Shown: one piece after another, positions 39,638 through 63,628 of the stretch
How positions within the stretch are numbered: the first letter of the stretch is position 1
Layout: every line of letters begins with the position of its first letter
Origin: Croceivirga thetidis
GTDB lineage: Bacteria; Bacteroidota; Bacteroidia; Flavobacteriales; Flavobacteriaceae
DNA length: 64,000 nt
Reading direction: 5' to 3'
Assembly (NCBI RefSeq): GCF_012272815.1
Contig: NZ_JAAWWL010000002.1
Span: 1 to 64,000, forward strand
The notes under the pieces: model-generated
Told to the model about the DNA's origin: nothing
Seen by the model: only the letters and a program-made list of their open reading frames with translations
The model's database searches: none
Translations under genes and position numbers: made by a program

Positions 39638-40867
39638 ATGAAACTATACAGATTAACTTTTATAGCCTTACTGGCTCTATTTTTTGCATGTAATTCAGAT
39701 ACCATTGAGCCAATAGGAGATGATGGGCAAGACAGTCAACAAGACGACTCAAATGACGATGGTGATGATGGTGTGGATGATGGTATTCTTAATGAAACAG
39801 TAACGGTATCGGTTGTAAATGCATTTGAGAATTTAGCTTTTACCCAGCCTTTAGATTTACAGTCACCGAATGATGGTACTGACCGAATTTTTGTTGCAGA
39901 GAAAACGGGTCGAATTCGAGTTTTTGAAAATGATCCTAATGTTACTTCAGCAGACACCTATTTAGATTTAAGTGGCAACCTTTCTACTACAAGTGAACAA
40001 GGTTTGATTGGCTTTGCGTTCCACCCAGATTACGCTTCAAATGGTTATGTATATGTTTGTTACAACCCCTCAACCGGTGTTTCCAATATTTCAAGGTTTA
40101 CCGTTTCACAATCCAATGCCAACGCGGTTGACCCAGGTAGTGAAGTTTTGATTATTCAGATTTCGCAACCGGATACAAACCACAACGGAGGGCAATTGGC
40201 GTTTGGACCTGATGGATATTTATATATTTCCTCAGGTGATGGTGGCGGTGCAGGTGATACTGACAATAATTCTCAAACAAGAAGTAATTTATTAGGTAAT
40301 ATCTTGCGTATTGATGTGGATAATACAGAAAATGGATTGAACTATGCTATCCCTCTAAGCAATCCTTTTGTTGGTGAAAATGGAGTTCGTGGTGAAATCT
40401 ACGCTTATGGTTTACGAAACCCTTGGCGAATGAGTTTTGATTCTGAATCAGGTAGTCTTTGGGCTGCCGATGTAGGTCAGGGAGCAAGAGAGGAAATAGA
40501 TGTTATTGTTTCTGGGGGAAATTATGGTTGGAAGCTTTTTGAGGGTACATCATGTTTTTCAGGAGATTGCAATGACTCAGGTCTCACACCTCCAATTTAT
40601 GAATATGGACATGATAATGGCGATCGCTCGGTCACGGGAGGAACGGTGTACCGAGGTGATGAAATAAGTTCTTTAAAGGGAAAATATATTTACGGCGATT
40701 ACGTAAGTGGGCGAATTTGGGCCTTGGAAACAGATGGTAGTACCAACCAACTTGTTACAGGATCACGTTTGAGTGTTTCAGCTTTCGGCGTCGATTCGAA
40801 TAAAGAACTTTACGTATGTGATTTGGTGGGTGGAATCTACAAGTTTGTAGAAACCCCAATTCAATAA
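39638..40867 (+). CDS. PQQ-type sugar dehydrogenase lipoprotein (sGDH/Hhip-like propeller)
   Basis: A 409-residue protein. The signal 'FIALLALFFAC' is a lipobox; the next 35 residues are very rich in Asp and Gln, a spacer consistent with surface-exposed lipoproteins. The body is a six-bladed glucose/sorbosone dehydrogenase propeller: 'LGFAFHP-like' strand 'QGLIGFAFHPDYASNGYVYV', 'HNGGQLAFGPDGYLYISSGDGGG' with the probable catalytic His, 'YGLRNPWRMSFD' with the Arg-Asn pair seen at the PQQ site, and 'GGNYGWKLFEG'. It probably oxidises a sugar outside the inner membrane. Its domain resembles the N-terminal module of the 2018-residue protein at 51713. Confidence 0.88.
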   Translation: MKLYRLTFIALLALFFACNSDTIEPIGDDGQDSQQDDSNDDGDDGVDDGILNETVTVSVVNAFENLAFTQPLDLQSPNDGTDRIFVAEKTGRIRVFENDPNVTSADTYLDLSGNLSTTSEQGLIGFAFHPDYASNGYVYVCYNPSTGVSNISRFTVSQSNANAVDPGSEVLIIQISQPDTNHNGGQLAFGPDGYLYISSGDGGGAGDTDNNSQTRSNLLGNILRIDVDNTENGLNYAIPLSNPFVGENGVRGEIYAYGLRNPWRMSFDSESGSLWAADVGQGAREEIDVIVSGGNYGWKLFEGTSCFSGDCNDSGLTPPIYEYGHDNGDRSVTGGTVYRGDEISSLKGKYIYGDYVSGRIWALETDGSTNQLVTGSRLSVSAFGVDSNKELYVCDLVGGIYKFVETPIQ

Positions 40868-50238: not shown

Positions 50239-51585
50239 ATGACCAATGTCTTTTTTCTGAAAGGAAACAAAAAATTGCTGAATGCTTGGGCCTTTTATGA
50301 CTGGGCAACTTCAGTTTATAACCTAACAATTTCAAGTGCTGTATTTCCCATTTATTATGGGGCATTGTTCAGAATGGCTGAGGTTGAAACCGTTGAGGTT
50401 TTTGGTCATCATATTGAAAGGGCACCTTTGATTGGGTATGTGTCGTCTGTATCTTTCGTGATAATTGCCCTAATTACTCCTTTAATTTCCGGTATTGCCG
50501 ATTACATTGGGAATAAAAGGATATTCTTGAAGTTTTTCACCTATCTCGGAGCTTTTGGCTGTATTGGTCTCTACTGGTTTTCGTTGGACCAAATTTATTT
50601 AAGCCTTATTTGCTATATGTTTGGTCTAATAGGTTCTTGGGTCAGTTTTGCCCTGTACAATTCATACCTTCCGGACATTGCCTATCCCGAACAGCAAGAT
50701 AAATTAAGTGCTAAAGGCTTTTCACTTGGTTATGTGGGTAGTGTACTCCTATTGATTTTCAATTTAATCATGGTCATGAAGCCCGAACTTTTCGGATTGG
50801 TTGATACGGAAACCGTTCCGGCAGCAGTTCAGGCCATGAAAATTTCATTTGTAACCGTTGGTGTTTGGTGGATAGTTTTTAGTCAATATACATTTTATCA
50901 TTTGCCTAAAGGATACAAGAAAGAAGGTGAAAGGCGAAATATAATTCTAAATGGCTTTTTGGAAATAAAATCGGTTTGGCACCAACTTCAGAATCACCCG
51001 AAATTGAAAAAATACCTTAGGGCATTTTTTGTTTATAGCATGGCTGTTCAAACCATTATGCTTATTGCTGCTTATTTTGGTGAAGAAGAGATTCAATGGG
51101 GCTCTGCAGAGAATAGACAAATTGGCCTTATTACCAGTATATTGTTAATTCAACTTGTAGCCATCATTGGTGCTTATGCGATGGCTTTTATGGCAAAAAG
51201 AATCGGTAACATAAAAACATTGATAATTGTAAATATTATTTGGTTTGCACTTTGCATTTACGCTTACACTATGGTAACTCCTACCGATTTTTATATTGGA
51301 GCAGGATTGGTTGGCCTTGTTATGGGCGGCATACAAGCAATTTCAAGATCGACCTATTCTAAATTCATTCCTGAAACAACCGATACAACTTCATTTTTTA
51401 GTTTCTATGATGTATCTGAAAAAATTGGGATTATAATTGGGTTATTGGCTTTTGCTTATATCAGCGAAGAAACTGATGGAATGAGAAATTCCGCACTCGC
51501 TTTTGCACTGTTTTTTATAGTTGGTGCCATTTTATTGATACGGGTATTCAAGGAAGAAAAGCTTAATAGCGATTCGCCCAACTAA
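50239..51585 (+). CDS. MFS transporter, UMF1/Atg22-like
   Basis: A 448-residue protein with about 12 helices. The start 'KKLLNAWAFYDWATSVYNLTISSAVFPIYY' is the UMF1-family (Atg22-like) signature 'aWalYDwAnsay...i...vfp.yf', and 'GLVMGGIQAISRSTYSKFIPE' and 'FFSFYDVSEKIGIIIGLLAF' are also conserved. Yeast Atg22 exports amino acids from the vacuole; the bacterial substrate is unknown. It is not obviously linked to the glucan genes. Confidence 0.9.
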   Translation: MTNVFFLKGNKKLLNAWAFYDWATSVYNLTISSAVFPIYYGALFRMAEVETVEVFGHHIERAPLIGYVSSVSFVIIALITPLISGIADYIGNKRIFLKFFTYLGAFGCIGLYWFSLDQIYLSLICYMFGLIGSWVSFALYNSYLPDIAYPEQQDKLSAKGFSLGYVGSVLLLIFNLIMVMKPELFGLVDTETVPAAVQAMKISFVTVGVWWIVFSQYTFYHLPKGYKKEGERRNIILNGFLEIKSVWHQLQNHPKLKKYLRAFFVYSMAVQTIMLIAAYFGEEEIQWGSAENRQIGLITSILLIQLVAIIGAYAMAFMAKRIGNIKTLIIVNIIWFALCIYAYTMVTPTDFYIGAGLVGLVMGGIQAISRSTYSKFIPETTDTTSFFSFYDVSEKIGIIIGLLAFAYISEETDGMRNSALAFALFFIVGAILLIRVFKEEKLNSDSPN

Positions 51586-51712: not shown

Positions 51713-54700
51713 ATGAAAAAACACTACACCTCAATTGGGATTGCCATTTTGTTAATCTCAATCATTTACTCATTTACTAATTTAAATCTTTTTTCACCAC
51801 CAGGTTTAACTTCTCCTGAACCGATTGGGAATTTTTTAAATGGGAATTTCCCGGATATTTCACCTGAAGGTGATCCGTATGTCGAGGCCTTTCCAAATTT
51901 GACATTTGATTCACCACTAACTTTTACTCCAGTACCCGATTCTAACGTTTTGGTCGTGGGACAGAGAGACGGTAAAATTTACTGGTTTGACAATAGGGAT
52001 GATGTGCCAACCAAGAATTTGGTCGCTGATTTGTCCAATGAAGTTGGGGTGGTTTGGGATGGTGGTTTTCTCGGTTTGGCGATTCATCCTGAATTTGGAA
52101 ATACTGGAAAAAACTATTTCTATTTATACTACACTACTAAAGACGGCCAAGGTAGGGATTACCCCAATGCTTTTGTTAGCGGTTTTGGATGTGATAGGGA
52201 AGATTATTGGGGAGGCTTTTTGATTCTCAAGCGAATAGAAGTGAATCCAAACACCTTTACTAGAATAGCCAGTAATGATTTGGTTATGATGAAAAAAAGG
52301 ATGTTTAGTTCAACTCACCGTGGTGGGGGAATTGCATTTGGTCAAGATGGTTTTTTGTACATACCAACAGGGGACCAATCCGCTTATAGCAAACCTCAAA
52401 ATTCAACCACAAATCTTGACGGAGGGGTACTTCGAATAGATGTGAACAGCGATTCTTCAAAAAGTCATCCGCCAATTCGTAAAATGCCACAAGGAGGTCG
52501 ATTTGCCGATGAAATTTCAGGAGTTGGTTATTACATTCCAGATGATAATCCATTTTTGAGTCCTGACGGTTCCAGATTTGAAGAATATTATACCGTAGGT
52601 CATAGAAATCCGCATAGAATGACCATGGACAGGGTTACCGGTACTTTTTATATTGGAGAAATTGGAGAAGGTACACACGAAGAAATAAATGTGATTAGTC
52701 CAGGTAAAAATTATGGATGGCCATTGTACGAAGGATATCGATTTAGTGGTAGGTGTACAACTATGCTTGATAATATGCCGCATGAAGGACCGTTGGTTGC
52801 TTTTCCGCGAAGTCAGGCTAATGCAATTATAGGAGGTTATGTGTATAGAGGTTCAGCAATGCCCGACTTTTATGGTAAATATATTTGTGCCGACTATGGA
52901 ACAGGGGAGGAAATATGGGCAGTGGATACGGCAACCGGAGAATATGAATTAATCACACAGTTTTCCCCCACAAATATCATTTCTTTTGGCGAAGACAATA
53001 GTGGTGAACTCTATTTATTAAGTCAAGGAAATAATGTTACACTTTACAAGCTAAGACAAACAGGAGGGCTTAATGGTAGCTTTCCTAATTTGCTTTCCGA
53101 GACGGGTGCGTTTAAAAATTTACAAACTTTAGAACCTAGCGAAGGTGTATTGCCTTATGAATTGATTGAACCATTCTGGTCAGATGGGGCCGAAAAGAAA
53201 AGATGGATGGTTATACCAAATGATGGAACACACAATACACCCGCAGAGCAGATTTCCTTTTCTGAAGACGGAGATTGGGAGTTTCCGGTTGGCTCCGTTT
53301 TAATCAAACATTTTGAACTACCAATTGATGAACGTAATCCTACTTTAACCAGAAGGCTGGAAACGCGTTTTTCGGTCAAAGCGAGTAATGGTTCCTTTTA
53401 TTATCTTACTTATAAATGGAACAATCAACAAACGGATGCAACCCTACTTAATAGTGGTCTTAGCGAAAATGTTCAAATAACCAAGGCAGATGGTAGCAAT
53501 GAATTTCAAGTTTGGGATTATCCTTCGACACAAGACTGTATTGCTTGCCATAATCCTGCAACCGGTGGCACATTAGGTACACGAACGAGATATCTAAATT
53601 CTGATTATACCTATTCAAAGTCAGGATTAACGGGTAATCAACTTGTTACCTTAAGTCATTTGGGAATTCTGAATGCTCCTATAACTGATGCAACCACCCA
53701 AAATTTTCAGACCTATAAGGCCTTGAATGATTTTAACGCAAGTTTGGATGAACGAGCAAGATCATACCTTGATTTAAACTGCGCCTACTGTCATAGGCCT
53801 GGTGCAACTGGAGAACGTGCGCAATTTGATTTGAGACTTTCCAATTCATTTGATCAAACGGGTCTTCTCGTTGCAGGAACGAATACTCCTTTAGGAATAC
53901 CAGGTGAAAAGATTTTGGTGCCTGGCAACGCTGCAGCTTCAATATTATACCATAGGACTGATTCTGCAGACCCAACGGTTATGATGCCACCTTTGGCAAA
54001 GAACAAAATTGATGAAACAGCAGTTGCATTGCTCGAAGATTGGATAAACCAAATGGATCCAAATTTGGTGCCTCAAGAGTGTACCGCAAGTGGCACGATA
54101 CTCTTGGAACGATATAATAATATCGGCGGAATTGCCCTAAATGATTTGTTTAATGCTCCGAATTACCCTGATAACCCAAGTAGTACCCAGCAAATCAACA
54201 GTTTTGAGATTGCTGTTAATTCAGGTGATAACTATGGGGTAAAAGTCAGCGGTTTTCTATGTCCACCGGAATCGGGGGTTTACTATTTCTGGGTTTCAGG
54301 CGATGATGAGTCAAGGCTAGACATCAGTACAGACCAAAATCCTGCCAACATAAGTACCATTGCAAATGTTCCAGGTTGGACTTCATCTAGGCAATGGAAT
54401 AAGTTTCAAGAGCAAAAGTCAAATGCAGTTCAGTTGATCAAAGGGCAGCGCTATTACATTCAGGCTTTTATGAAAGAATCTGGAGGTGGTGATAATTTGG
54501 CTGTAGGTTGGAGAAGACCATCCGACGGTAATGGACAAACACCGGCAGAGATAATTCCAGGAAACGTACTTTCACCTTGGGCAAATAATGTTTTTGTTAC
54601 AGATGTGAGTGTAAATCCAGAAAATCTGGTATTGACCGAAGGGGAGAACACAAGCCTTACGGCAACGGTCAGTCCGTCGGATGCAAGTGATAAGTCAGTA

Positions 54701-57700
54701 ATCTGGTCAAGCAGTGACGATTCCGTTGCCACGGTGGATGACTCAGGAAACGTAACGGCCATCGCCCCAGGAGTAGCGACCATAACGGTCACGACCAATG
54801 ATGGAGGTTACCAGGCGAATACTACGGTTGAGGTCAACGAATTGATCATCCCAGTAAGTGGGGTCACCTTGAACACGGACAGCTTGGTATTGACCGAAGG
54901 GGAGATCGCAAGCCTTACGGCAACGGTCGGTCCGTCGGATGCAAGCGATAAATCAGTAATCTGGTCGAGCAGTGACGATTCCATTGCCACGGTTGATGAC
55001 TCAGGAAACGTAACGGCCATCGCCCCAGGAGTAGCGACCATAACGGTCACGACCAACGACGGAGGTTACCAGGCGAACGCCACGGTTGAGGTCAATGAAT
55101 TGATCATCCCAGTAAGTGGGGTCACCTTGAACACGGATAGCTTGGTATTGACCGAAGGGGAGAACGCAAGCCTTACGGCAACGATCGGTCCGTCGGATGC
55201 CAGCGATAAATCAATAATCTGGTCGAGCAGTGACGATTCCGTTGCCACGGTTGATGACTCAGGAAACGTAACGGCCATTGCCCCAGGAGTAGCGACCATA
55301 ACGGTCACCACCAACGACGGAGGTTACCAGGCGAATGCCACGGTTGAGGTCAATGAATTGATCATCCCAGTAAGTGGGGTCACCTTGAATACGGACAGTT
55401 TGGTATTGACCGAAGGGGAGAGCGCAAGCCTTACCGCAACGGTCGGTCCGTCGGATGCCAGCGATAAATCAGTAATCTGGTCGAGCAGTGACGATTCCAT
55501 TGCCACGGTTGATGACTCAGGAAACGTAACGGCCATTGCCCCAGGAGTAGCGACCATAACGGTCACCACCAACGACAGAGGTTACCAGGCGAATGCCACG
55601 GTTGAGGTCAATGAATTGATCATCCCAGTAAGTGGGGTCACCTTGAACACGGATAGCTTGGTATTGACCGAAGGGGAGAACGCAAGCCTTACGGCAACGA
55701 TCGGTCCATCGGATGCAAGTGATAAATCAGTAATCTGGTCGAGCAGTGACGATTCCGTTGCCACGGTGGATGACTCAGGAAACGTAACGGCCATCGCCCC
55801 AGGAGTAGCGACCATAACGGTCACGACCAACGATGGAGGTTACCAGGCGAACGCCACGGTTGAGGTCAATGAATTGATCATCCCAGTAAGCGGGGTCACC
55901 TTGAACACGGATAGCTTGGTATTGACCGAAGGGGAGAACACAAGCCTTACGGCAACGGTAGGTCCATCGGATGCAAGTGATAAATCAGTAATCTGGTCGA
56001 GCAGTGACGATTCCGTTGCCACCGTGGATGACTCAGGAAACGTAACGGCCATCGCCCCAGGAGTAGCGACCATAACGGTCACGACCAACGATGGAGGTTA
56101 CCAGGCCAATGCCACTGTTGAGGTTAATACTATTATAATCAGCGTTAGCGGTGTTTTACTGAATCCGGAGATTTTCAGTTTGGTCGTTGGAGAATCACAG
56201 GTATTGAATGCAGAGGTATTGCCTGCCAATGCTGATAATAAGGATATTATTTGGTATACGAGCGATGACAGTGTTGCATCAATCAGTGATATAGGTGAGG
56301 TGACCGCACTATCAGAAGGTACTTCGGTTCTAACTGCAAGAACGGTAGATGGTGGCTTCGAGGCCTATAGTACCCTAACTGTATTACCCGGTGGTGGCAA
56401 TGGGATAGCCGTTACTGGTGTTACTTTAGAACCTGAGATATTCAGTATGTCGGTTGGAGATTTGCAAACACTAACTGCAGTCGTATTACCGTCAGATGCG
56501 GACATTAAAGACATTATTTGGTATACCAGTGATGATAGCGTTGCCTTGATTAATGGAAATGGGGAAGTAACAGCAGTAGCCGAAGGAACCTCAGTTCTTA
56601 CGGCCAGAACTGTTGATGGTGGCTTTGAGGCCTATAGTACCCTAACCGTATTACCCGGAGGCGGCAATGGGGTTGCTGTTACTGGTGTTACTTTAGAACC
56701 TGAAATATTCAGTTTGCAAGTTGGTGAGTCGAGAACATTGGATGCCAATGTGCTTCCTTCAGATGCCGATAACAAATCGTTGATTTGGTATACCAGTGAT
56801 GACAGCGTTGCCTTGATTAATGGAAATGGAGAAGTAACAGCAGTAGGTGAAGGAACCTCAGTTCTTACGGCCAGAACGGTAGATGGTGGCTTCGAAGCCT
56901 ACAGTACAGTCACTGTGTTACCTAGTGGTGGCAATGGGGTTGCTGTTACAGGTGTGACATTACAGCCTGAATCCTTTAGTTTGTCTGTTGGAGAATCACG
57001 GACATTAGAGGCTACAGTTTTTCCTGCAAATGCTGATAACCAAGAAATTATATGGTACACAAGCAATGATACTGTTGTTTCAATTAATGGCAACGGAGAG
57101 ATAACCGCATTGAGTGCCGGAACTTCAGTACTTACTGCTCGCACTTTAGACGGTGGTTACGAAGCCTATAGTTCCGTTAATGTAATTTCAGGTGGGCAAG
57201 GTATTGCAGTAACCGGAGTAATTCTTGAACCGGAATTATTAAGTATTTCAATTGGGGAAACAATAGGGCTAACAGCATCCGTGATACCTTCTAATGCCGA
57301 TAATAAAGACTTGATTTGGTATACAACCGACCCGGGTATTGCAACAATAAGTTCCGATGGACTGCTGACAGCTTTGAACGAGGGTGTGGTGGTAATCACT
57401 GCGCGGACTGTTGATGGTGGCTTTGAAGCCTACAGCACGGTTACAAGTGTTGATGCACAACCTGGAACGCTTAGTATAGTACTAGGGGAACTTGCACCAC
57501 AAGACCAATCAATTGTGAATTTAAGGGTAGCGCCAAATCCAATTAATCCAAATTCCACTTTTTCATTGAGCTTTGTGGCCTTTAAAAGTGAACCACTTAC
57601 AGTGGAGTTATGGGATTATAGTGGTAAACGCATTAAGCAAGTATTGGGTAAATCAAATAATGGTTTTAATATCATAGATGTGGATACTTATAATATTTCA

Positions 57701-57769
57701 TCAGGAAGCTATATTATAACAGTTAAAGTAGCCGATGATATGTTCTCAAAACAACTGATAATTAAATAA
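51713..57769 (+). CDS. Giant T9SS cargo: sugar dehydrogenase + dihaem cytochrome c + PA14 + 11 Big_2
   Basis: A 2018-residue protein. After a signal peptide comes a PQQ-type sugar dehydrogenase propeller (about 45-455; 'STHRGGGIAFGQDGFLYIPTGD' with the likely catalytic His, 'GHRNPHRMTMD' with the Arg-Asn pair, 'GKNYGWPLYEG'). Residues 460-785 form a cytochrome c module like the SO2930/HNE_0200-type dihaem proteins, with CIACH (near 609) and CAYCH (near 690) and a possible distal Met in 'VMMPPLAKNK'. A PA14 domain (790-956) follows, which often binds carbohydrate, then eleven Big_2 Ig-like domains (962-1915), the first six almost identical. The C-terminus ('LRVAPNPINPNSTFSL' ... 'ISSGSYIITVKVADDMFSKQLIIK'-like ending) is a type A T9SS sorting domain, so export across the outer membrane and attachment or release there are predicted. 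No exact promoter box; TTCTTTTG near 51680 is one mismatch off. Confidence 0.92.
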   Translation: MKKHYTSIGIAILLISIIYSFTNLNLFSPPGLTSPEPIGNFLNGNFPDISPEGDPYVEAFPNLTFDSPLTFTPVPDSNVLVVGQRDGKIYWFDNRDDVPTKNLVADLSNEVGVVWDGGFLGLAIHPEFGNTGKNYFYLYYTTKDGQGRDYPNAFVSGFGCDREDYWGGFLILKRIEVNPNTFTRIASNDLVMMKKRMFSSTHRGGGIAFGQDGFLYIPTGDQSAYSKPQNSTTNLDGGVLRIDVNSDSSKSHPPIRKMPQGGRFADEISGVGYYIPDDNPFLSPDGSRFEEYYTVGHRNPHRMTMDRVTGTFYIGEIGEGTHEEINVISPGKNYGWPLYEGYRFSGRCTTMLDNMPHEGPLVAFPRSQANAIIGGYVYRGSAMPDFYGKYICADYGTGEEIWAVDTATGEYELITQFSPTNIISFGEDNSGELYLLSQGNNVTLYKLRQTGGLNGSFPNLLSETGAFKNLQTLEPSEGVLPYELIEPFWSDGAEKKRWMVIPNDGTHNTPAEQISFSEDGDWEFPVGSVLIKHFELPIDERNPTLTRRLETRFSVKASNGSFYYLTYKWNNQQTDATLLNSGLSENVQITKADGSNEFQVWDYPSTQDCIACHNPATGGTLGTRTRYLNSDYTYSKSGLTGNQLVTLSHLGILNAPITDATTQNFQTYKALNDFNASLDERARSYLDLNCAYCHRPGATGERAQFDLRLSNSFDQTGLLVAGTNTPLGIPGEKILVPGNAAASILYHRTDSADPTVMMPPLAKNKIDETAVALLEDWINQMDPNLVPQECTASGTILLERYNNIGGIALNDLFNAPNYPDNPSSTQQINSFEIAVNSGDNYGVKVSGFLCPPESGVYYFWVSGDDESRLDISTDQNPANISTIANVPGWTSSRQWNKFQEQKSNAVQLIKGQRYYIQAFMKESGGGDNLAVGWRRPSDGNGQTPAEIIPGNVLSPWANNVFVTDVSVNPENLVLTEGENTSLTATVSPSDASDKSVIWSSSDDSVATVDDSGNVTAIAPGVATITVTTNDGGYQANTTVEVNELIIPVSGVTLNTDSLVLTEGEIASLTATVGPSDASDKSVIWSSSDDSIATVDDSGNVTAIAPGVATITVTTNDGGYQANATVEVNELIIPVSGVTLNTDSLVLTEGENASLTATIGPSDASDKSIIWSSSDDSVATVDDSGNVTAIAPGVATITVTTNDGGYQANATVEVNELIIPVSGVTLNTDSLVLTEGESASLTATVGPSDASDKSVIWSSSDDSIATVDDSGNVTAIAPGVATITVTTNDRGYQANATVEVNELIIPVSGVTLNTDSLVLTEGENASLTATIGPSDASDKSVIWSSSDDSVATVDDSGNVTAIAPGVATITVTTNDGGYQANATVEVNELIIPVSGVTLNTDSLVLTEGENTSLTATVGPSDASDKSVIWSSSDDSVATVDDSGNVTAIAPGVATITVTTNDGGYQANATVEVNTIIISVSGVLLNPEIFSLVVGESQVLNAEVLPANADNKDIIWYTSDDSVASISDIGEVTALSEGTSVLTARTVDGGFEAYSTLTVLPGGGNGIAVTGVTLEPEIFSMSVGDLQTLTAVVLPSDADIKDIIWYTSDDSVALINGNGEVTAVAEGTSVLTARTVDGGFEAYSTLTVLPGGGNGVAVTGVTLEPEIFSLQVGESRTLDANVLPSDADNKSLIWYTSDDSVALINGNGEVTAVGEGTSVLTARTVDGGFEAYSTVTVLPSGGNGVAVTGVTLQPESFSLSVGESRTLEATVFPANADNQEIIWYTSNDTVVSINGNGEITALSAGTSVLTARTLDGGYEAYSSVNVISGGQGIAVTGVILEPELLSISIGETIGLTASVIPSNADNKDLIWYTTDPGIATISSDGLLTALNEGVVVITARTVDGGFEAYSTVTSVDAQPGTLSIVLGELAPQDQSIVNLRVAPNPINPNSTFSLSFVAFKSEPLTVELWDYSGKRIKQVLGKSNNGFNIIDVDTYNISSGSYIITVKVADDMFSKQLIIK
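54596..56143 (+). repeat. Six near-identical 258-bp Big_2 repeats
   Basis: Units start at 54596, 54854, 55112, 55370, 55628 and 55886, each coding 86 residues (V-[ST]-[DG]-V-[ST] ... VEVNELIIP). Differences are mostly single bases (for example GEN/GEI/GES before the Ala or Thr-Ser; TVG/TIG; one DGGY to DRGY). The units are GC-richer than the flanking coding sequence. Such identity implies recent amplification or gene conversion. Confidence 0.93.
56144..57466 (+). repeat. Five diverged Big_2 repeats (264-267 bp units)
   Basis: Units start at 56144, 56411, 56678, 56945 and 57209. They share the pattern VTGVTLEPE.FSL.VGE...L.A.VLP..AD.K..IWYTSDDSV but differ at many positions, unlike the six upstream units. 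They end in a Gly-rich linker (LPGGGNG). Confidence 0.88.
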
Positions 57770-57785
57770 AATACACAAAGATAAA

Positions 57786-57821
57786 AGTCCAGAAATTCAA
57801 TATTTTTTGATTTTCTGGACT
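57786..57821 (+). terminator. Hairpin after the 2018-residue gene
   Basis: Stem AGTCCAGAAA/TTTCTGGACT (57786-57795 and 57812-57821), 17 bases after the stop. The loop itself contains TCAA/TTGA. No T-run follows, so it may be a weak terminator or an mRNA 3'-end stabiliser. The rest of the 270-base gap to the next gene holds nothing else I recognise. Confidence 0.5.
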
Positions 57822-58039
57822 ATCATATCTACTCGAAACGGAGTAAGGTTTTATTACCAAAATAAAAATCGTTACTTTAAAATGAGATATAAGCTAATAC
57901 TGTTTACACCCCTAATTAGAGGGAATAACCCTTAATGGAAAATTGGTGAATTAATGATACAGATAGATCTTAATAAAAATAGTTACCGACGAATCTGACA
58001 ATTCATTAATTTTAGATGATAACCAAACTAAATTGACAA

Positions 58040-61000
58040 TTGAAAAATACCCTTGGTAAAATAAGCAAAAGGGTCTTTCAAAAGCTCTCCTTAGTACTCA
58101 GTGTTCTGCTGTTGTCCAGCTTTGTGCTCATTGTTGGCAATCTGGACTCAAGAAAAGGAGTTATTCCCAAAATCACGTTTTCAGAGCAAGAGGTAGGTAC
58201 TATTATTAGTCCTCAAATGGGAGTTCGCCATATGAACCAACCCAGTGTGTTTAACGGTTATGTAATTCTTGCCGGAAATGCAGAACACGAGGTATGGGAT
58301 ATATCAAACCCTTACGCTCCTGTTAAGCTTGCCGAGATGATAAGTTCTCACAAAAACGGAGAAGCAGAGTCACATCAGGTAACTTATGGCAAGGATATTA
58401 ATGGTAAGTATTATTTAGCTACGATTTCTGGTAGGGGTTTTGATATTTGGGATGTATCTCAAACAACAAATCCTTTATATGTAAAAGCGGTAGAGATAGA
58501 AGGCGTTAATTATGGTGACGTAGATAACGCTATCTGGGGGCTGAGCTGGCAAGGCAACTATTTGTATATAGGTGCCACCAACCAAGGATTGTTGATTTTT
58601 GACGTTAGCAATGTGACCAACCCAGTCCTTGTAAGCAGTTTATCACGTTCTGAACTTGGAGGGGTATATGCAGGTCCTTTATTTGCTGTTGGAAATCTTT
58701 TGACAATCACAACACCAAAAGAGTACGCTGGTATAGCCACAGTGGATATCAGCAATCCTGAAAATCCAATTTTATTGGATTCAAAAACCTTTAATGAGAA
58801 AAGCTATATAGGGGGCTTTTACGGAAAACATGCGTATTTAATAAATCCATTCCGAAAAATAGATGTAACCAGTAATCCCAATGAAATTCAATTGGTTTCT
58901 TCTTTATCGAATCCCATTGCGGAATACATGAGTTTTGCTGAAAATCATTTATTTCTTGGAGGATTACGTGGTGGTACCCAAGGTCTTTACAAGTATGATA
59001 TTTCAAACGAAAATCAACTGCAACTAAAAACAAGAATTCAAGGTCGGAATTCTGGTTTTGACGACCAATTTTCAGTACCAATTGGAAATATGGTCGTAAT
59101 GGCTGACGATCAATTCTATAATAACTCTTACGTGAGTGCAGTAATGGCGGTACATGATACTCAGCCAGATAATAATGGACCTTCAGTGTTGTATTTTAAC
59201 CCTGGGAGTGATTTACAGAATGCCTCGGTCTCAACGAATATTGGGATATCTTTTGATGATTGGATAGAATTGACCTCAGTTGATGCTAATAGTTTTCAAG
59301 TTATAGATGATTCTGGGAATCAAGTTCAAGGCCGTTGGGGGCTTACCTACACAACTTTGAATTTTTCTCCGGCTCAGCCACTAAAAGAGGCCACTGAATA
59401 TCGGGTATTTTTGCCACAAGGAGGAGTAAAAGACTTATCTGGGAATGGTTTAAAAAATGCTTTTGAATTCAGTTTTACTACAGAAGGTGAACAGACGTTA
59501 CCAGATGAGAATATCGAGCTTTATGAAACCCCTCCAACCGAATTAGGAAATCCAACAGTTTTTAGGATTTTAAATCCTAAACCGGAACTAAGATATCAAT
59601 GGGATTTGGGAGATGGGGCGCAAAATGTTGGTGCTGAAATAAGTCACACATATCAAGATCCAGGTAGATACCCAGTATTGGTAACCGCTTATCGGAACCC
59701 AGACGAAGATGGTGTTTTTGATGTTGTAAACGCCGACTTATCTGGTGGGGTTATTTTGTCCTCAATCCATTCTGGGGCAAATAGAAATACATATGCCGAT
59801 TTTCCCTCCGAACAAGGTGATAATGTCTCTATTACTTGGTCGTTGAACCAAGCTACTTCTAGAAATGTGAAAATTGATTTTCGTTATGCTTCACTCGGTA
59901 ATTCTAGGGCCTTAAATCTATATATGAATGGCTTATTCATTCAAAGATTGGATTTTCCTAATACAAATAGTTGGGAAATATGGAATGCAGTAAGCACCAC
60001 AACCTTGAATTTGCCCGCTGGAACAAATACAATTGAATTAAGGGCAAATGCAGGAACTTCTGGCCCAAACATAGATTATTTGTTCATATCCGATGGCTCA
60101 GAAAATACTGGTGACGAATATTCAGTTGTGGACACTTTTGCGTTTACACAAATAGTGTTTGAACCAGTTCCTGTGCTTAAACCACAACAAAGCAGCGCGC
60201 TTCATTTGTTGGAAAATAAACTATGGGTTGCCAACGCTGACGCAAATAGTGTAACAGTAATTGACTTAGAAAGTTTGGAAAGAATGGCTGAAGTCTCAGT
60301 TGGAATGAGACCGATAGCAATAGCCTCTGACAATCAGAATAGGTTATGGGTTTTAAATAAGGATTCTTGGAACATTACCCTCTTAGATGAGACTTCGGGA
60401 GAACTTATGAACGAAGTTACACTGCCATACGCCTCTCGCCCAACTGCTATTTTACTTTCCCCTGAAAAGGATTATGCTTATGTTGTTCTTTCATCCCTAG
60501 CACAAGTTTTAAAAATTAACACCCAGACCTTATCAACAGAAAAAACTCTTTCAATTCCGAAAGACGATAACGGAATTTTGCCAGAGTTAGGTAGTATGGC
60601 CATGACTGCGGAAGGCGATAAAATATATGTGCTAAGGTTTATTTCATCTGATATCTATGGGCAAGTTTTTGCAATAAACACGGCTGATTTGAGTATGGTG
60701 AAGCAAATTCCCTTAGAATATTCCGAAGGTTTGGATAGCTCTGGTTTTTCTAGAGGTTTGCCTAACTATTTAGCAAGTATAGCAATTAGTCCAGATGGGA
60801 AATTGGCTTGCATTCCATCCAAGAAAGACAATGTTTTAAGAGGCACTTCGCGAGACGGGAATCCTTTGACCCATGATTTAACGGTTCGGGCAATAAATTC
60901 ATTCATTAATCTTGAAAATGACGAGGAATTAGGCAATAAAAGAATCGATATGGATAATATTGATAGGGGCCACACAGCAGTATTCAATGAATTGGGAGAT

Positions 61001-63628
61001 TTGGTCTATGTAAGTCAACCTGGCAATAATCAGATCTGGGTAATTGAAACTTCAACGGGAAATAAAATAAACGAAATTGATACGAATAAAACACCACAGG
61101 CAATGCTTATAGATGACGAAAATGAGTATTTGCTTGTTCACAATTTCTTATCAAGAAGTATTTCTGTTTTTCAATTAGATACAAATGGTGTGAACTGGAA
61201 TTTTTTAATTGAAATACCATTGTTGAATTCTGAACCATTGGCCCCAGAAGTTTTAAAAGGAAAACAGCTTTTTTACGATGCCACTTCCACGAAATTGAAT
61301 ATGGAAGGCTATATGAGTTGTGTTTCCTGTCATATGGATGGTGGCCATGATGGCAGAGTTTGGGATTTCACAAATCTGGGTGAAGGTCTAAGAAATACAA
61401 TTGACCTGAGAGGTAAGGCTGGTACTCGAGAAGGTGCATTGCATTGGTCTGCTAATTTTGATGAAGTACACGATTTTGAAAATCAAATAAGAATTCTTGG
61501 AAGCGGCACTGGTTTAATGGATGATTCGGATTTTTCTTCAGGCACTATAGAGGAGCCCTTGGGAGATTCAAAAGCAGGTTATTCTGAAGAATTGGATGCC
61601 TTGAACGCCTACGTTAGTTCGCTAGGTATTCATCTTCCAAGCCCTTATAGAAATCAAGATGGTTCCATGACATCCGATGGTCAGTTGGGTAAGCAACTAT
61701 TTAATGATTTGAGATGTTTTCAGTGTCACGGTGACAATCACTTTACCGATAGTCCAGTAGGAATCACCCATGACATCGGAACAATAGGTGGATCAAGCGG
61801 AAATAGTGATGGAAAAGAATTGTTAGGAATCGATACACCAGGTTTGCGGGGAATTTGGAATACAGCGCCTTATTTACATGATGGTTCAGCTCCAACCTTG
61901 AAAAGCATATTCACCGAAAAAAATCAATTGGAAGCTCATGCATCAACTTCTAATTTATCGACCGATGAGCTAAACCAATTAATTTCATATCTGAACCAAT
62001 TAGATGATAGTTCCGATGTTGCCCAAAATAATACCATTGAGGTTTCATTGAATACTACAGAAACCAACAATGAAATCTATGTTGGCAATGCTGTAGAATT
62101 ATCCGTAACCTCAAATATTGAGAACATAAACGCTGTCCATTACTATTTGAATGGTGACCTAATAAATACTAGTTCTGATTACCCCTTTACCATTACGTGG
62201 ATTCCAGAGAACTCTGGCAATATCCCTTTAAAGGCAAAAGTCTTTTATGGTGATACTGGTCGAGCAGTCGTAACTAATGTGAAGCGATTAATGGTGCAAG
62301 AGTCAACAAGGGTCACTTCTGTTTTGACAAACCCAGAAAGTGTTGACCTGAATTTAGGTGAAACTGTAAAACTGAATGTCACGGTTAACCCAGAAAACGC
62401 CACAAATAGACAAGTAATTTGGTCGAGTTCAGATGAAAGTATAGCTCAGGTAGACCAAAGCGGTACGGTCATAGCTGTGAAAGAGGGGAATGCAAACATA
62501 ACCGCTACATCAGTAGATGGAGGTCATACAGCGCTTACCGAAGTAACCGTGATTAATTCCTTTATTTCTGTAACTGGAATAAATCTGGAATCATCCGAAG
62601 TAGAATTATTTGAAGGTGAGACATTTCTATTATCGGCAGTTGTTAGTCCATCCAATGCAACAGATGCCAGCCTTACTTGGAATTCAGAAAATAACGAAGT
62701 TGTAACTGTTGATTCCAGCGGACAGCTAAATGCCATTTCTGAAGGTACAACAGTCGTTACAGTAACAACTAATGACGGAGGTTATTCTGCGAGCGCAAAT
62801 ATTTCGGTAAGAAAAATAGAAGTATCAGTATCAGGTATTGAGGTTCAACCTGAGACCATAGAATTGATTGTTGGGGAATCATTTGATATTACAGTTGAAG
62901 TAATACCAAGTGATGCTTCAAACAAATCTGTTTTGTGGTTTTCCGAAGATAATTCAATAGCATCGGTAGACCAGAATGGTAGTGTTATGGCCAAGTCTGA
63001 AGGTGAAACACAAATTACCATTGAATCGGTCGATGGAGGATATACTGCTTTCGTTGTCGTAAACGTAACTGAGAATACCACCCAGTCGATTGCTTTGGAA
63101 GGAATTGAGTTAAACCCCAAAAGAGTTGCTCTAGAAGTAGGTCAAAAAGCAAAGTTATTTCCATTATTTTTTCCTTCAAATGCCACGAACCAAAAACTGT
63201 TTTGGGAAACAAGTAATCCTCTAATTGCAATGATAAGTGCCGACGGTGAAATAACTGGTGTATCAAATGGTAACACAAAGATTAGGGCAACGTCGGAAGA
63301 TGGAGGTTTTACTTCGGAGGCTAATATTGTGGTAATTACACCTGCTGGTACAAAGGAAGATTTAACTAGTCTTACAATTGTGCCAAATCCGGCTAGTGAA
63401 GTTCTTGAAATAAGTCTTAAGGATTTTGACAACGGAACAATCGCAATTAGAAGAATATCTTTTTTTCAAATTAACGGTAAAGAAGTCTTACGCCTTGATG
63501 GAAGATTTTTAGATATGAACAACACAAAATTAGAATTGGATATTTCAAGTTTAGCCCAGGGAAATTATGTAATATCAATTTTTACGCAACGACATGGTGT
63601 TATTTCTAAACGCCTAATTGTTAATTGA
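58040..63628 (+). CDS. Giant T9SS cargo: propellers + PKD/CBM6-like + dihaem module + 4 Big_2
   Basis: A 1862-residue protein. The start is TTG at 58040: a TGA stands two codons upstream in frame and the next ATG is after the signal peptide (FQKLSLVLSVLLLSSFVLIVG). Order of modules: LVIVD-type propeller repeats (about 50-380; 'EHEVWDISNPYAPVKLAEM'), an Ig-like Big_5-type domain (385-480), a PKD domain ('YQWDLGDG' near 515), a CBM6-like domain (565-690; 'DFPSEQGDNVSITWSLNQA'), a YVTN propeller (713-1053; 'NKLWVANADANSVTVIDLE'), then a dihaem module with CVSCH (near 1094), CFQCH (near 1226) and 'TPGLRGIWNTAPYLHDGS', the hallmark of MauG/CcpA-like dihaem proteins. An Ig-like domain, four diverged Big_2 domains and a T9SS type A sorting domain ('IVPNPASEVLEIS'...'GNYVISIFTQRHGVISKRLIVN'-type end) follow. 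Confidence 0.9.
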   Translation: MKNTLGKISKRVFQKLSLVLSVLLLSSFVLIVGNLDSRKGVIPKITFSEQEVGTIISPQMGVRHMNQPSVFNGYVILAGNAEHEVWDISNPYAPVKLAEMISSHKNGEAESHQVTYGKDINGKYYLATISGRGFDIWDVSQTTNPLYVKAVEIEGVNYGDVDNAIWGLSWQGNYLYIGATNQGLLIFDVSNVTNPVLVSSLSRSELGGVYAGPLFAVGNLLTITTPKEYAGIATVDISNPENPILLDSKTFNEKSYIGGFYGKHAYLINPFRKIDVTSNPNEIQLVSSLSNPIAEYMSFAENHLFLGGLRGGTQGLYKYDISNENQLQLKTRIQGRNSGFDDQFSVPIGNMVVMADDQFYNNSYVSAVMAVHDTQPDNNGPSVLYFNPGSDLQNASVSTNIGISFDDWIELTSVDANSFQVIDDSGNQVQGRWGLTYTTLNFSPAQPLKEATEYRVFLPQGGVKDLSGNGLKNAFEFSFTTEGEQTLPDENIELYETPPTELGNPTVFRILNPKPELRYQWDLGDGAQNVGAEISHTYQDPGRYPVLVTAYRNPDEDGVFDVVNADLSGGVILSSIHSGANRNTYADFPSEQGDNVSITWSLNQATSRNVKIDFRYASLGNSRALNLYMNGLFIQRLDFPNTNSWEIWNAVSTTTLNLPAGTNTIELRANAGTSGPNIDYLFISDGSENTGDEYSVVDTFAFTQIVFEPVPVLKPQQSSALHLLENKLWVANADANSVTVIDLESLERMAEVSVGMRPIAIASDNQNRLWVLNKDSWNITLLDETSGELMNEVTLPYASRPTAILLSPEKDYAYVVLSSLAQVLKINTQTLSTEKTLSIPKDDNGILPELGSMAMTAEGDKIYVLRFISSDIYGQVFAINTADLSMVKQIPLEYSEGLDSSGFSRGLPNYLASIAISPDGKLACIPSKKDNVLRGTSRDGNPLTHDLTVRAINSFINLENDEELGNKRIDMDNIDRGHTAVFNELGDLVYVSQPGNNQIWVIETSTGNKINEIDTNKTPQAMLIDDENEYLLVHNFLSRSISVFQLDTNGVNWNFLIEIPLLNSEPLAPEVLKGKQLFYDATSTKLNMEGYMSCVSCHMDGGHDGRVWDFTNLGEGLRNTIDLRGKAGTREGALHWSANFDEVHDFENQIRILGSGTGLMDDSDFSSGTIEEPLGDSKAGYSEELDALNAYVSSLGIHLPSPYRNQDGSMTSDGQLGKQLFNDLRCFQCHGDNHFTDSPVGITHDIGTIGGSSGNSDGKELLGIDTPGLRGIWNTAPYLHDGSAPTLKSIFTEKNQLEAHASTSNLSTDELNQLISYLNQLDDSSDVAQNNTIEVSLNTTETNNEIYVGNAVELSVTSNIENINAVHYYLNGDLINTSSDYPFTITWIPENSGNIPLKAKVFYGDTGRAVVTNVKRLMVQESTRVTSVLTNPESVDLNLGETVKLNVTVNPENATNRQVIWSSSDESIAQVDQSGTVIAVKEGNANITATSVDGGHTALTEVTVINSFISVTGINLESSEVELFEGETFLLSAVVSPSNATDASLTWNSENNEVVTVDSSGQLNAISEGTTVVTVTTNDGGYSASANISVRKIEVSVSGIEVQPETIELIVGESFDITVEVIPSDASNKSVLWFSEDNSIASVDQNGSVMAKSEGETQITIESVDGGYTAFVVVNVTENTTQSIALEGIELNPKRVALEVGQKAKLFPLFFPSNATNQKLFWETSNPLIAMISADGEITGVSNGNTKIRATSEDGGFTSEANIVVITPAGTKEDLTSLTIVPNPASEVLEISLKDFDNGTIAIRRISFFQINGKEVLRLDGRFLDMNNTKLELDISSLAQGNYVISIFTQRHGVISKRLIVN

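Follow-up and report, generated by a model that had tools for sequence, protein, structure and literature searches.

The 64,000-nucleotide window analysed here, from Croceivirga thetidis (Flavobacteriaceae; contig NZ_JAAWWL010000002.1, positions 1 to 64,000), carries two adjacent giant genes on the + strand, gene 1 (P0001, 51713..57769) and gene 2 (P0002, 58040..63628). Both frames are open, where the original prediction had placed them, and both encode exported proteins with two CxxCH haem motifs, carbohydrate-type modules, Big_2 stalks and a type IX secretion system (T9SS) sorting domain. That prediction took them for a redox pair on the cell surface. We give an even chance to another reading, drawn from the sequences and their relatives: the products would be two dihaem oxidoreductases, independent of each other, that bind carbohydrate, leave the cell through the T9SS and attack polysaccharides at the surface, their genes being neighbours by chance. 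A conserved pair is not supported, and the genes appear as independent units that chance to adjoin. Of greater interest is the wide, little-studied family to which gene 2 belongs.

Adjacency on the same strand, together with the shared tails, stalks and haem motifs, speaks for a single surface system, with sugar oxidation by gene 1 and, by gene 2, either uptake of the electrons of gene 1 or peroxide reduction. The sister species (G009) argues otherwise. Its gene 1 orthologue (76% identity) is flanked, as in the window, by the transporter and GIN-type genes (identified by eye), in a locus otherwise syntenic with the window, but gene 2 is absent. Co-occurrence was surveyed in 60 relatives and in 346 genomes of the order, two overlapping sets; the 346-genome surveys scored only the best two or three candidates per genome, and the one for the fusion of GSDH and SO2930-like domains found in gene 1 shows two of the three copies in C. 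thetidis itself. Full-length gene 2 cores (propeller plus dihaem module) were present in three of the 60 relatives (own genome, G029 and G012) and three of the 346 order genomes (own, G112 and G245); some match to gene 2 was found in 30 of the 60, mostly short and in frames sized like dihaem peroxidases. Full-length GSDH-SO2930 fusions occurred in 3/60 relatives, own genome counted, all of the same genus (own, G009 and G006), while in 18 others matches at E 1e-20 spanned one half only; at E 1e-60 they occurred in 3/346 (own, G006, and G202 as two pieces in one frame). Among the 60 relatives and the 346 order genomes, none but the own genome had both genes full-length. The flanks retrieved for 80 gene 2 relatives (some of them short) and for G029, G012 and G035 yielded no SO2930 domain. 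In 2/80 loci (L082 and L097) the gene 2 relative has a GSDH-domain gene nearby, a point for a joint system, though neither of these GSDH genes has a CxxCH motif. Directly 3′ of gene 1, a strong terminator-like hairpin (57786..57821, + strand; −21.2 kcal/mol, z −7.2) separates it from gene 2. The original prediction had proposed a search for the same two-gene architecture in other genomes; on the sets searched the pair claim fails, and a conserved two-gene system was rejected on synteny and co-occurrence.

The phylogeny of the gene 2 core points the same way. A quick, midpoint-rooted tree was drawn from 80 cores. In it, gene 2 pairs with a metagenome-assembled genome (MAG) labelled Akkermansia (Verrucomicrobiota; SH-aLRT 99) and falls outside a 21-row set (99) that contains all but one of the 20 other Bacteroidota rows; the exception, L046, has a long branch away from the rest. 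This placement suggests that gene 2 was gained by transfer, as if separately from gene 1, with the cautions that branches are long and composition is uneven. Taking synteny, co-occurrence, hairpin and tree together, we consider a single system of both genes very unlikely.

Gene 1 starts with ATG and encodes 2018 aa, in which a GSDH domain is followed by an SO2930-like dihaem cytochrome, a PA14 domain, 11 Big_2 stretches and the T9SS tail. A Sec-type signal peptide is predicted by eye at residues 1 to ~25 (51713..51787). The GSDH quinoprotein-type propeller (51908..53044, residues 66–444) scored 129.6 bits against Pfam GSDH (cut-off 25). H202, R298 and N299, which we take to be the catalytic His and the Arg-Asn that contacts pyrroloquinoline quinone (PQQ), align with the PQQ-type relatives 3a9g, 2ism and 7cdy, and the three positions are invariant in 7/7 family members. 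A profile built from these seven had 3a9g/3a9h as its top match (1.1e-22); 3a9g is presumably a PQQ aldose dehydrogenase. The sequence supports the predicted PQQ-type sugar dehydrogenase domain. The cytochrome (53084..54055, residues 458–781, TIGR03806) carries the haem motifs CIACH (53537..53551, residues 609–613) and CAYCH (53780..53794, residues 690–694). A Met-Pro motif C-terminal to the second CxxCH is kept in all 12 aligned SO2930-like sequences, gene 1 among them, and its Met is a likely ligand of the second haem. A search of the PDB found no solved relative of this region (two matches, both phosphatases, best E 0.3, taken as chance).

The remainder of gene 1 consists of the PA14 domain (54221..54523, residues 837–937; 27.8 bits, cut-off 24), a Big_2 stalk (54596..57172, end approximate) and a T9SS type A sorting domain (57530..57766, residues 1940–2018). 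The tail matches TIGR04183 with 32.3 bits (cut-off 23); the Pfam tail model, at 25.8, stays below its cut-off of 27. The DNA of the stalk contains two tandem arrays, one with 5.8 copies of a 258-bp unit and one with 3.6 copies of a 267-bp unit. In the first (54627–56128), the 5.8 copies of the 258-bp unit show 95% matches and the GC content is near 0.50, against about 0.38–0.40 in the surroundings; this array is a recent amplification.

Gene 1 is one of three such proteins in its own genome, each with a different carbohydrate-recognition end. The other two GSDH-SO2930 proteins, at 205–216 kb of contig C2, in which the window also lies, are 60% identical over the module and end otherwise (by eye), one in ricin-type and PKD repeats and one in a malectin-like part. 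A further GSDH-cytochrome fusion of this genome (L012 4836–8216) is a 1126-aa protein with PKD-like stretches and one CxxCH near its end (non-GSDH parts by eye), and the window itself holds a 409-aa GSDH protein without a cytochrome part (39638–40867). Five stand-alone SO2930-like genes in four genomes (L161–L164) have lipoprotein-like N-termini, and in each case the next gene encodes a T9SS-like tail (by eye), so SO2930 cytochromes may be linked to the surface more widely. The original prediction had drawn an analogy with fungal pyranose dehydrogenases, and the fungal CcPDH, which we take to carry a carbohydrate-binding module (CBM), does resemble gene 1. In the parts of the literature consulted, CcPDH is an exported PQQ-type dehydrogenase joined to a cytochrome (PMC4332668, PMC5960967). 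That cytochrome is b-type, whereas gene 1 has a two-haem c-type SO2930-like domain, a Big_2 stalk and a T9SS tail.

Gene 2 encodes 1862 aa from a TTG start, with an in-frame stop two codons 5′ of it. A predicted Sec-type signal peptide (58040..58138; by eye, residues 1 to ~33) is followed by an LVIVD-type propeller with Big_5 (58172..59509, residues 45–490; pLDDT 92 in the predicted structure of residues 40–490), a PKD domain (59537..59689, residues 500–550) and a CBM6/35-like module (59747..60091, residues 570–684) that matches PDB entries 2w47 and 2w1w (E 2e-11; Pfam CBM_35_2 18.7, under its 23). Then come a YVTN propeller resembling hydrazine synthase (HZS) beta (60194..61225, residues about 719–1062) and a dihaem module resembling HZS gamma (61235..62005, residues about 1066–1322), with the motifs CVSCH (61319..61333, residues 1094–1098) and CFQCH (61715..61729, residues 1226–1230). 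A Big_7-like domain (62042..62218, residues 1335–1393; Pfam 19.4, under its 24.1), four Pfam Big_2 domains (62312..63349, end approximate) and a T9SS type A sorting domain (63380..63625, residues 1781–1862; TIGR04183 24.5 bits, cut-off 23; Pfam 34.5, cut-off 27) complete the protein. The main domains of both proteins are well beyond chance. The earlier domain list holds for the parts that it named, PA14, CBM6-like, Big_2 and tail included; it had left both propellers of gene 2 unnamed.

HZS gamma and beta are the best profile matches of the gene 2 core among redox proteins. As in gene 2, HZS beta/gamma (5c2v) have a propeller and then a dihaem domain, and H1300 of gene 2 (61937..61939), invariant in 35/35 aligned cores, aligns with a gamma His. 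Gene 2 nevertheless differs from HZS. Its Leu1153 and Gly1156 stand at gamma-Cys165 and Asp168 (one local alignment, accuracy 0.66), and its cysteines (924, 1094, 1097, 1226 and 1229) leave none to spare near the haems, unlike gamma-Cys165, the third haem cysteine. The score against the HZS NCBIfam model is 68.8 of 1250 bits, far below cut-off, and the core sits in a giant T9SS-tailed protein with a CBM-like module. HZS_alpha (PF18582) had no match in the genome, the model being silent in all controls too. We rejected the identification of gene 2 as a hydrazine synthase, since gamma-Cys165 and Asp168 are absent. Fused beta-gamma HZS homologues are described as highly prevalent in environmental bacteria, Bacteroidota included, in the sections of PMC12758564 consulted. 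A 677-aa three-haem relative of the beta-gamma core, clustered with further secreted genes in genome G035 (L047 7018–9048), resembles in this respect the HZS homologues that, in the same sections of that paper, form a clade with one additional haem motif (PMC12758564).

The dihaem module had been predicted to be MauG/CcpA-like, and a conventional surface cytochrome c peroxidase acting against external H2O2 has to be weighed. bCCP, MauG, BthA and MbnH share with gene 2 two CxxCH motifs and matching sequence profiles, and the profile search also matched dihaem peroxidases (3o5c 9.6e-21, 1iqc 3.2e-17). AA5 enzymes make H2O2, and those fused to sister-branch relatives of gene 2 (below) would provide a source. 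However, Pfam CCP_MauG (PF03150) scored 22.8 bits, under its gathering cut-off of 25.6, HZS gamma fits the module better than MauG or the peroxidases do, and gene 2 has His where dihaem peroxidases use Met. MauG differs here too, with Tyr where gene 2 has His at the second haem (Tyr-His, in the portion of PMC6405878 consulted). The module is dihaem, as predicted, with HZS gamma rather than MauG as its closest fit; peroxide reduction by gene 2 is possible, and a plain peroxidase quite unlikely. The rubber oxygenase RoxA is matched by a short Pfam RoxA-like_Cyt-c motif (37.6, cut-off 26.7); against the NCBIfam RoxA model gene 2 fell short with 13.8 of 1000 bits.

We read 80 of the 322 gene 2 relatives found. 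With the window protein, G029 and G012, 82 proteins could be classified: 79 of the 80 loci entered, L048 being excluded for a broken frame, and L045 and L062 are one record. Their front modules are AA5-like in 43 and LVIVD-type in 34, as in the window gene 2; none has both and five have neither (L120 and four that are truncated by the end of a contig). In AA5-type members the copper radical oxidase module (galactose/glyoxal oxidase) is fused ahead of the gene 2-like propeller-dihaem core, and both of those scanned (L075 and L083) contain the AA5-type E-set and kelch repeats of Pfam. The positions that we take to be the AA5 copper site are occupied by Cys in 41, Tyr in 41, Tyr-His in 43 and His in 43 of the 43; L081 and L114, the two incomplete rows, are truncated where their contigs end. 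AA5-fronted giants were found in Pseudomonadota, Verrucomicrobiota, Chloroflexota, Myxococcota, Planctomycetota and one Flavobacteriaceae MAG (loci L067, L072, L075, L077–L083, L085–L087, L089, L091–L094, L096, L097, L100–L104, L106, L108, L110–L118 and L121–L127). The two front types occupy separate parts of the core tree save for L100, with two changes each against a mean of 24.9 after shuffling (0/500 shuffles as low). At L100 2–1309, from a Flavobacteriaceae MAG, a transporter gene lies a few genes 5′ of the AA5-type relative; it resembles, by eye, the window transporter directly 5′ of gene 1 (50239–51585). Records titled Akkermansia muciniphila (L048, L049, L095 and L109) also carry the family, a species label that we regard as doubtful.

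The LVIVD module of gene 2 was compared with the AA5 fronts. By E-value the top Foldseek match was galactose oxidase 2wq8 (1.5e-8, with a TM score of 0.46 on the query), whereas a second structure search returned generic WD40-type propellers, with no AA5 chain among the best 50 matches, and hhalign of the LVIVD and AA5 module profiles gave a probability of 0.4 of 100. Gene 2 has no cysteine before residue 924, hence none in its N-terminal propeller, and so no Cys-Tyr cofactor or copper-radical site of the AA5 kind. A hidden galactose oxidase was dropped on these grounds.

Generic WD40-type matches, giant size and many PKD, Big and CBM modules would suit a family that consists mainly of adhesins or structural propeller proteins, with a dihaem domain that is a relic or a plain relay and has no catalytic role. 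Conservation argues against this. Across 35 cores from several phyla there is no variation in either CxxCH motif, in W1108, H1135, H1280 or H1300, or in much of the HWxxNFDE..DF block, which is unlike a relic, and the presumed copper-site positions are complete in 41 of the 43 AA5-type relatives, all but the two truncated ones. We regard the adhesin explanation as unlikely.

The genomic context of some relatives supports a role in polysaccharide breakdown. In 12 of 13 Aquimarina loci (L051, L053, L055, L056, L058, L059, L061, L065, L066, L068, L071 and L088; the exception is L050) the gene 2 relative lies amid cellulase genes with T9SS-like tails. Giant GH48-, GH9- and GH5-type proteins with such tails surround the dihaem protein in these clusters. 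Pfam scans of 28 Aquimarina-cluster neighbours gave GH5 in three, GH48 in two and GH9 in two, six from L058 and L053; the remaining Aquimarina cellulase loci were assigned by phmmer likeness. In other loci, 42 scanned neighbours gave GH48 in at least two (among the 25 commonest of 83 families), by phmmer two pieces in L084, a MAG locus with GH9- and GH48-like neighbours; L069 has a GH5-like neighbour by eye. GH16-like genes lie near the relative in G029 and sulfatase-type genes near that in G012 (both by eye). The open-licence literature matches listed included no report of a T9SS-tailed GSDH-cytochrome, an AA5-dihaem fusion or the gene 2 family in Aquimarina cellulase clusters.

Two Cellvibrio proteins offer a comparison. 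Cbp2D and Cbp2E, exported and carbohydrate-binding like the products of genes 1 and 2, matter for growth on insoluble cellulose, and Cbp2D has a c-type cytochrome module, according to the part of PMC12542752 consulted. Cbp2D differs in having X158 and X183 modules beside a lytic polysaccharide monooxygenase (LPMO), with no propeller-dihaem core described in that part of the article (PMC12542752); the C. thetidis genome gave no LPMO_10 match.

The machinery for export and haem attachment appears to be present. SprA, the T9SS component searched for, was found in the 3.7 Mb genome with 2866.9 bits, and a single Cytochrom_C_asm (CcsA-family) gene, whose open frame spans 1080 aa, fits a CcsBA-type haem attachment system. 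T9SS tails recur on CxxCH proteins: TIGR04183 matched 17 of 24 scanned tails, of which 18 came from the own genome, the genus or other Bacteroidota and six were outsiders (L046, without a T9SS tail by eye, and five proteins of other phyla). In the part seen of the T9SS cargo review PMC10202324, the haem-binding Hbp35 is named, with haem capture as its role. It is like genes 1 and 2 in being a haem-binding protein with T9SS cargo status, but the text seen names no c-type cytochrome (‘cytochrome’ occurs 0 times; PMC10202324), and genes 1 and 2 carry c-type motifs. Of the original surface redox pair, then, the export tags, SprA, the Cytochrom_C_asm gene, the GSDH residues, the carbohydrate-type modules and the fungal analogy stand, and the redox roles proposed for each protein singly are plausible; the pairing is not supported in the genomes searched.

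Several observations weigh against two independent surface oxidoreductases acting on polysaccharides. The GSDH profile also matches hedgehog-interacting protein (2.4e-13), which presumably binds no PQQ; the Arg-Asn of GHRNP is not retained in that alignment. TIGR03806 gave gene 1 250.2 bits over the whole model (2–314/314) and missed the curated cut-off of 313.3, so we call the cytochrome only SO2930-like. PqqC was not found in the genome (the same model was positive in 1/4 other genomes), and PqqE gave nothing over cut-off, a weaker test, with 0/14 controls over cut-off. Because these PQQ genes were not found, the propeller of gene 1 may lack its cofactor; any PQQ that it uses is likely taken up from outside. 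With no LPMO_10 found in the genome (the model was positive in 1/14 controls), there is no known oxidative partner, and an LPMO as electron acceptor was dropped. In the structure search with the gene 2 core, propeller matches filled the list and the dihaem part was barely probed. Finally, no cellulase or polysaccharide utilization locus surrounds gene 2 in the window. The neighbours there are ordinary glycan genes, GH31-like (by eye) and branching-enzyme-type, common to the sister species, and for that reason a polysaccharide role of the window gene 2 itself is only inferred. Among the relatives, cellulase neighbours occur mainly in one genus and at two further loci (L084, and L069 by eye).

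We nevertheless keep two independent oxidoreductases as the favoured reading. If they are loaded with haem, and gene 1 with PQQ, and displayed at the surface, the PQQ-type aldose dehydrogenase propeller of gene 1, with PQQ from outside, would oxidise a sugar or oligosaccharide, and electrons would pass from PQQ through the two haems of the fused cytochrome to an acceptor outside the cell. In gene 2, the beta-gamma scaffold of YVTN propeller and dihaem module is joined to a CBM-like module, with the LVIVD propeller in front. Haem 1 would have an open site near W1108 and react with O2, peroxide or substrate, and haem 2, with H1230 and H1300 as putative bis-His ligands, would relay electrons; such activity would aid oxidative attack on polysaccharide. 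Added peroxidase raises galactose oxidase to its radical form, and in the AA5-fused relatives the dihaem part may likewise bring the copper enzyme to that form, or consume H2O2.

For the family as a whole our proposal is tentative, and we put its chance below even: an unrecognised multi-phylum class of exported, carbohydrate-bound proteins, in which an HZS-like propeller/dihaem core with an AA5 (43/82) or LVIVD (34/82) front would make oxidative breaks in crystalline polysaccharides or power an oxidase acting on them. In Bacteroidota the T9SS would carry the loaded cytochromes, beside GH48, GH9 and GH5 cellulases in Aquimarina, and in the AA5 form the dihaem part would be a built-in peroxidase or activator. 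The AA5-dihaem fusions allow a direct test of whether the built-in haem domain activates the copper-radical oxidase or consumes its peroxide. If the proteins are indeed loaded and displayed, the T9SS exports folded c-type cytochromes, a class unnamed in the part seen of the cargo review (PMC10202324). If the proposal is correct, relatives of the hydrazine synthase beta-gamma scaffold would be placed in polysaccharide breakdown, and the gene 2 family would offer a possible oxidative route to polysaccharide-degrading Bacteroidota that lack LPMO_10, as the genome of C. thetidis seems to.

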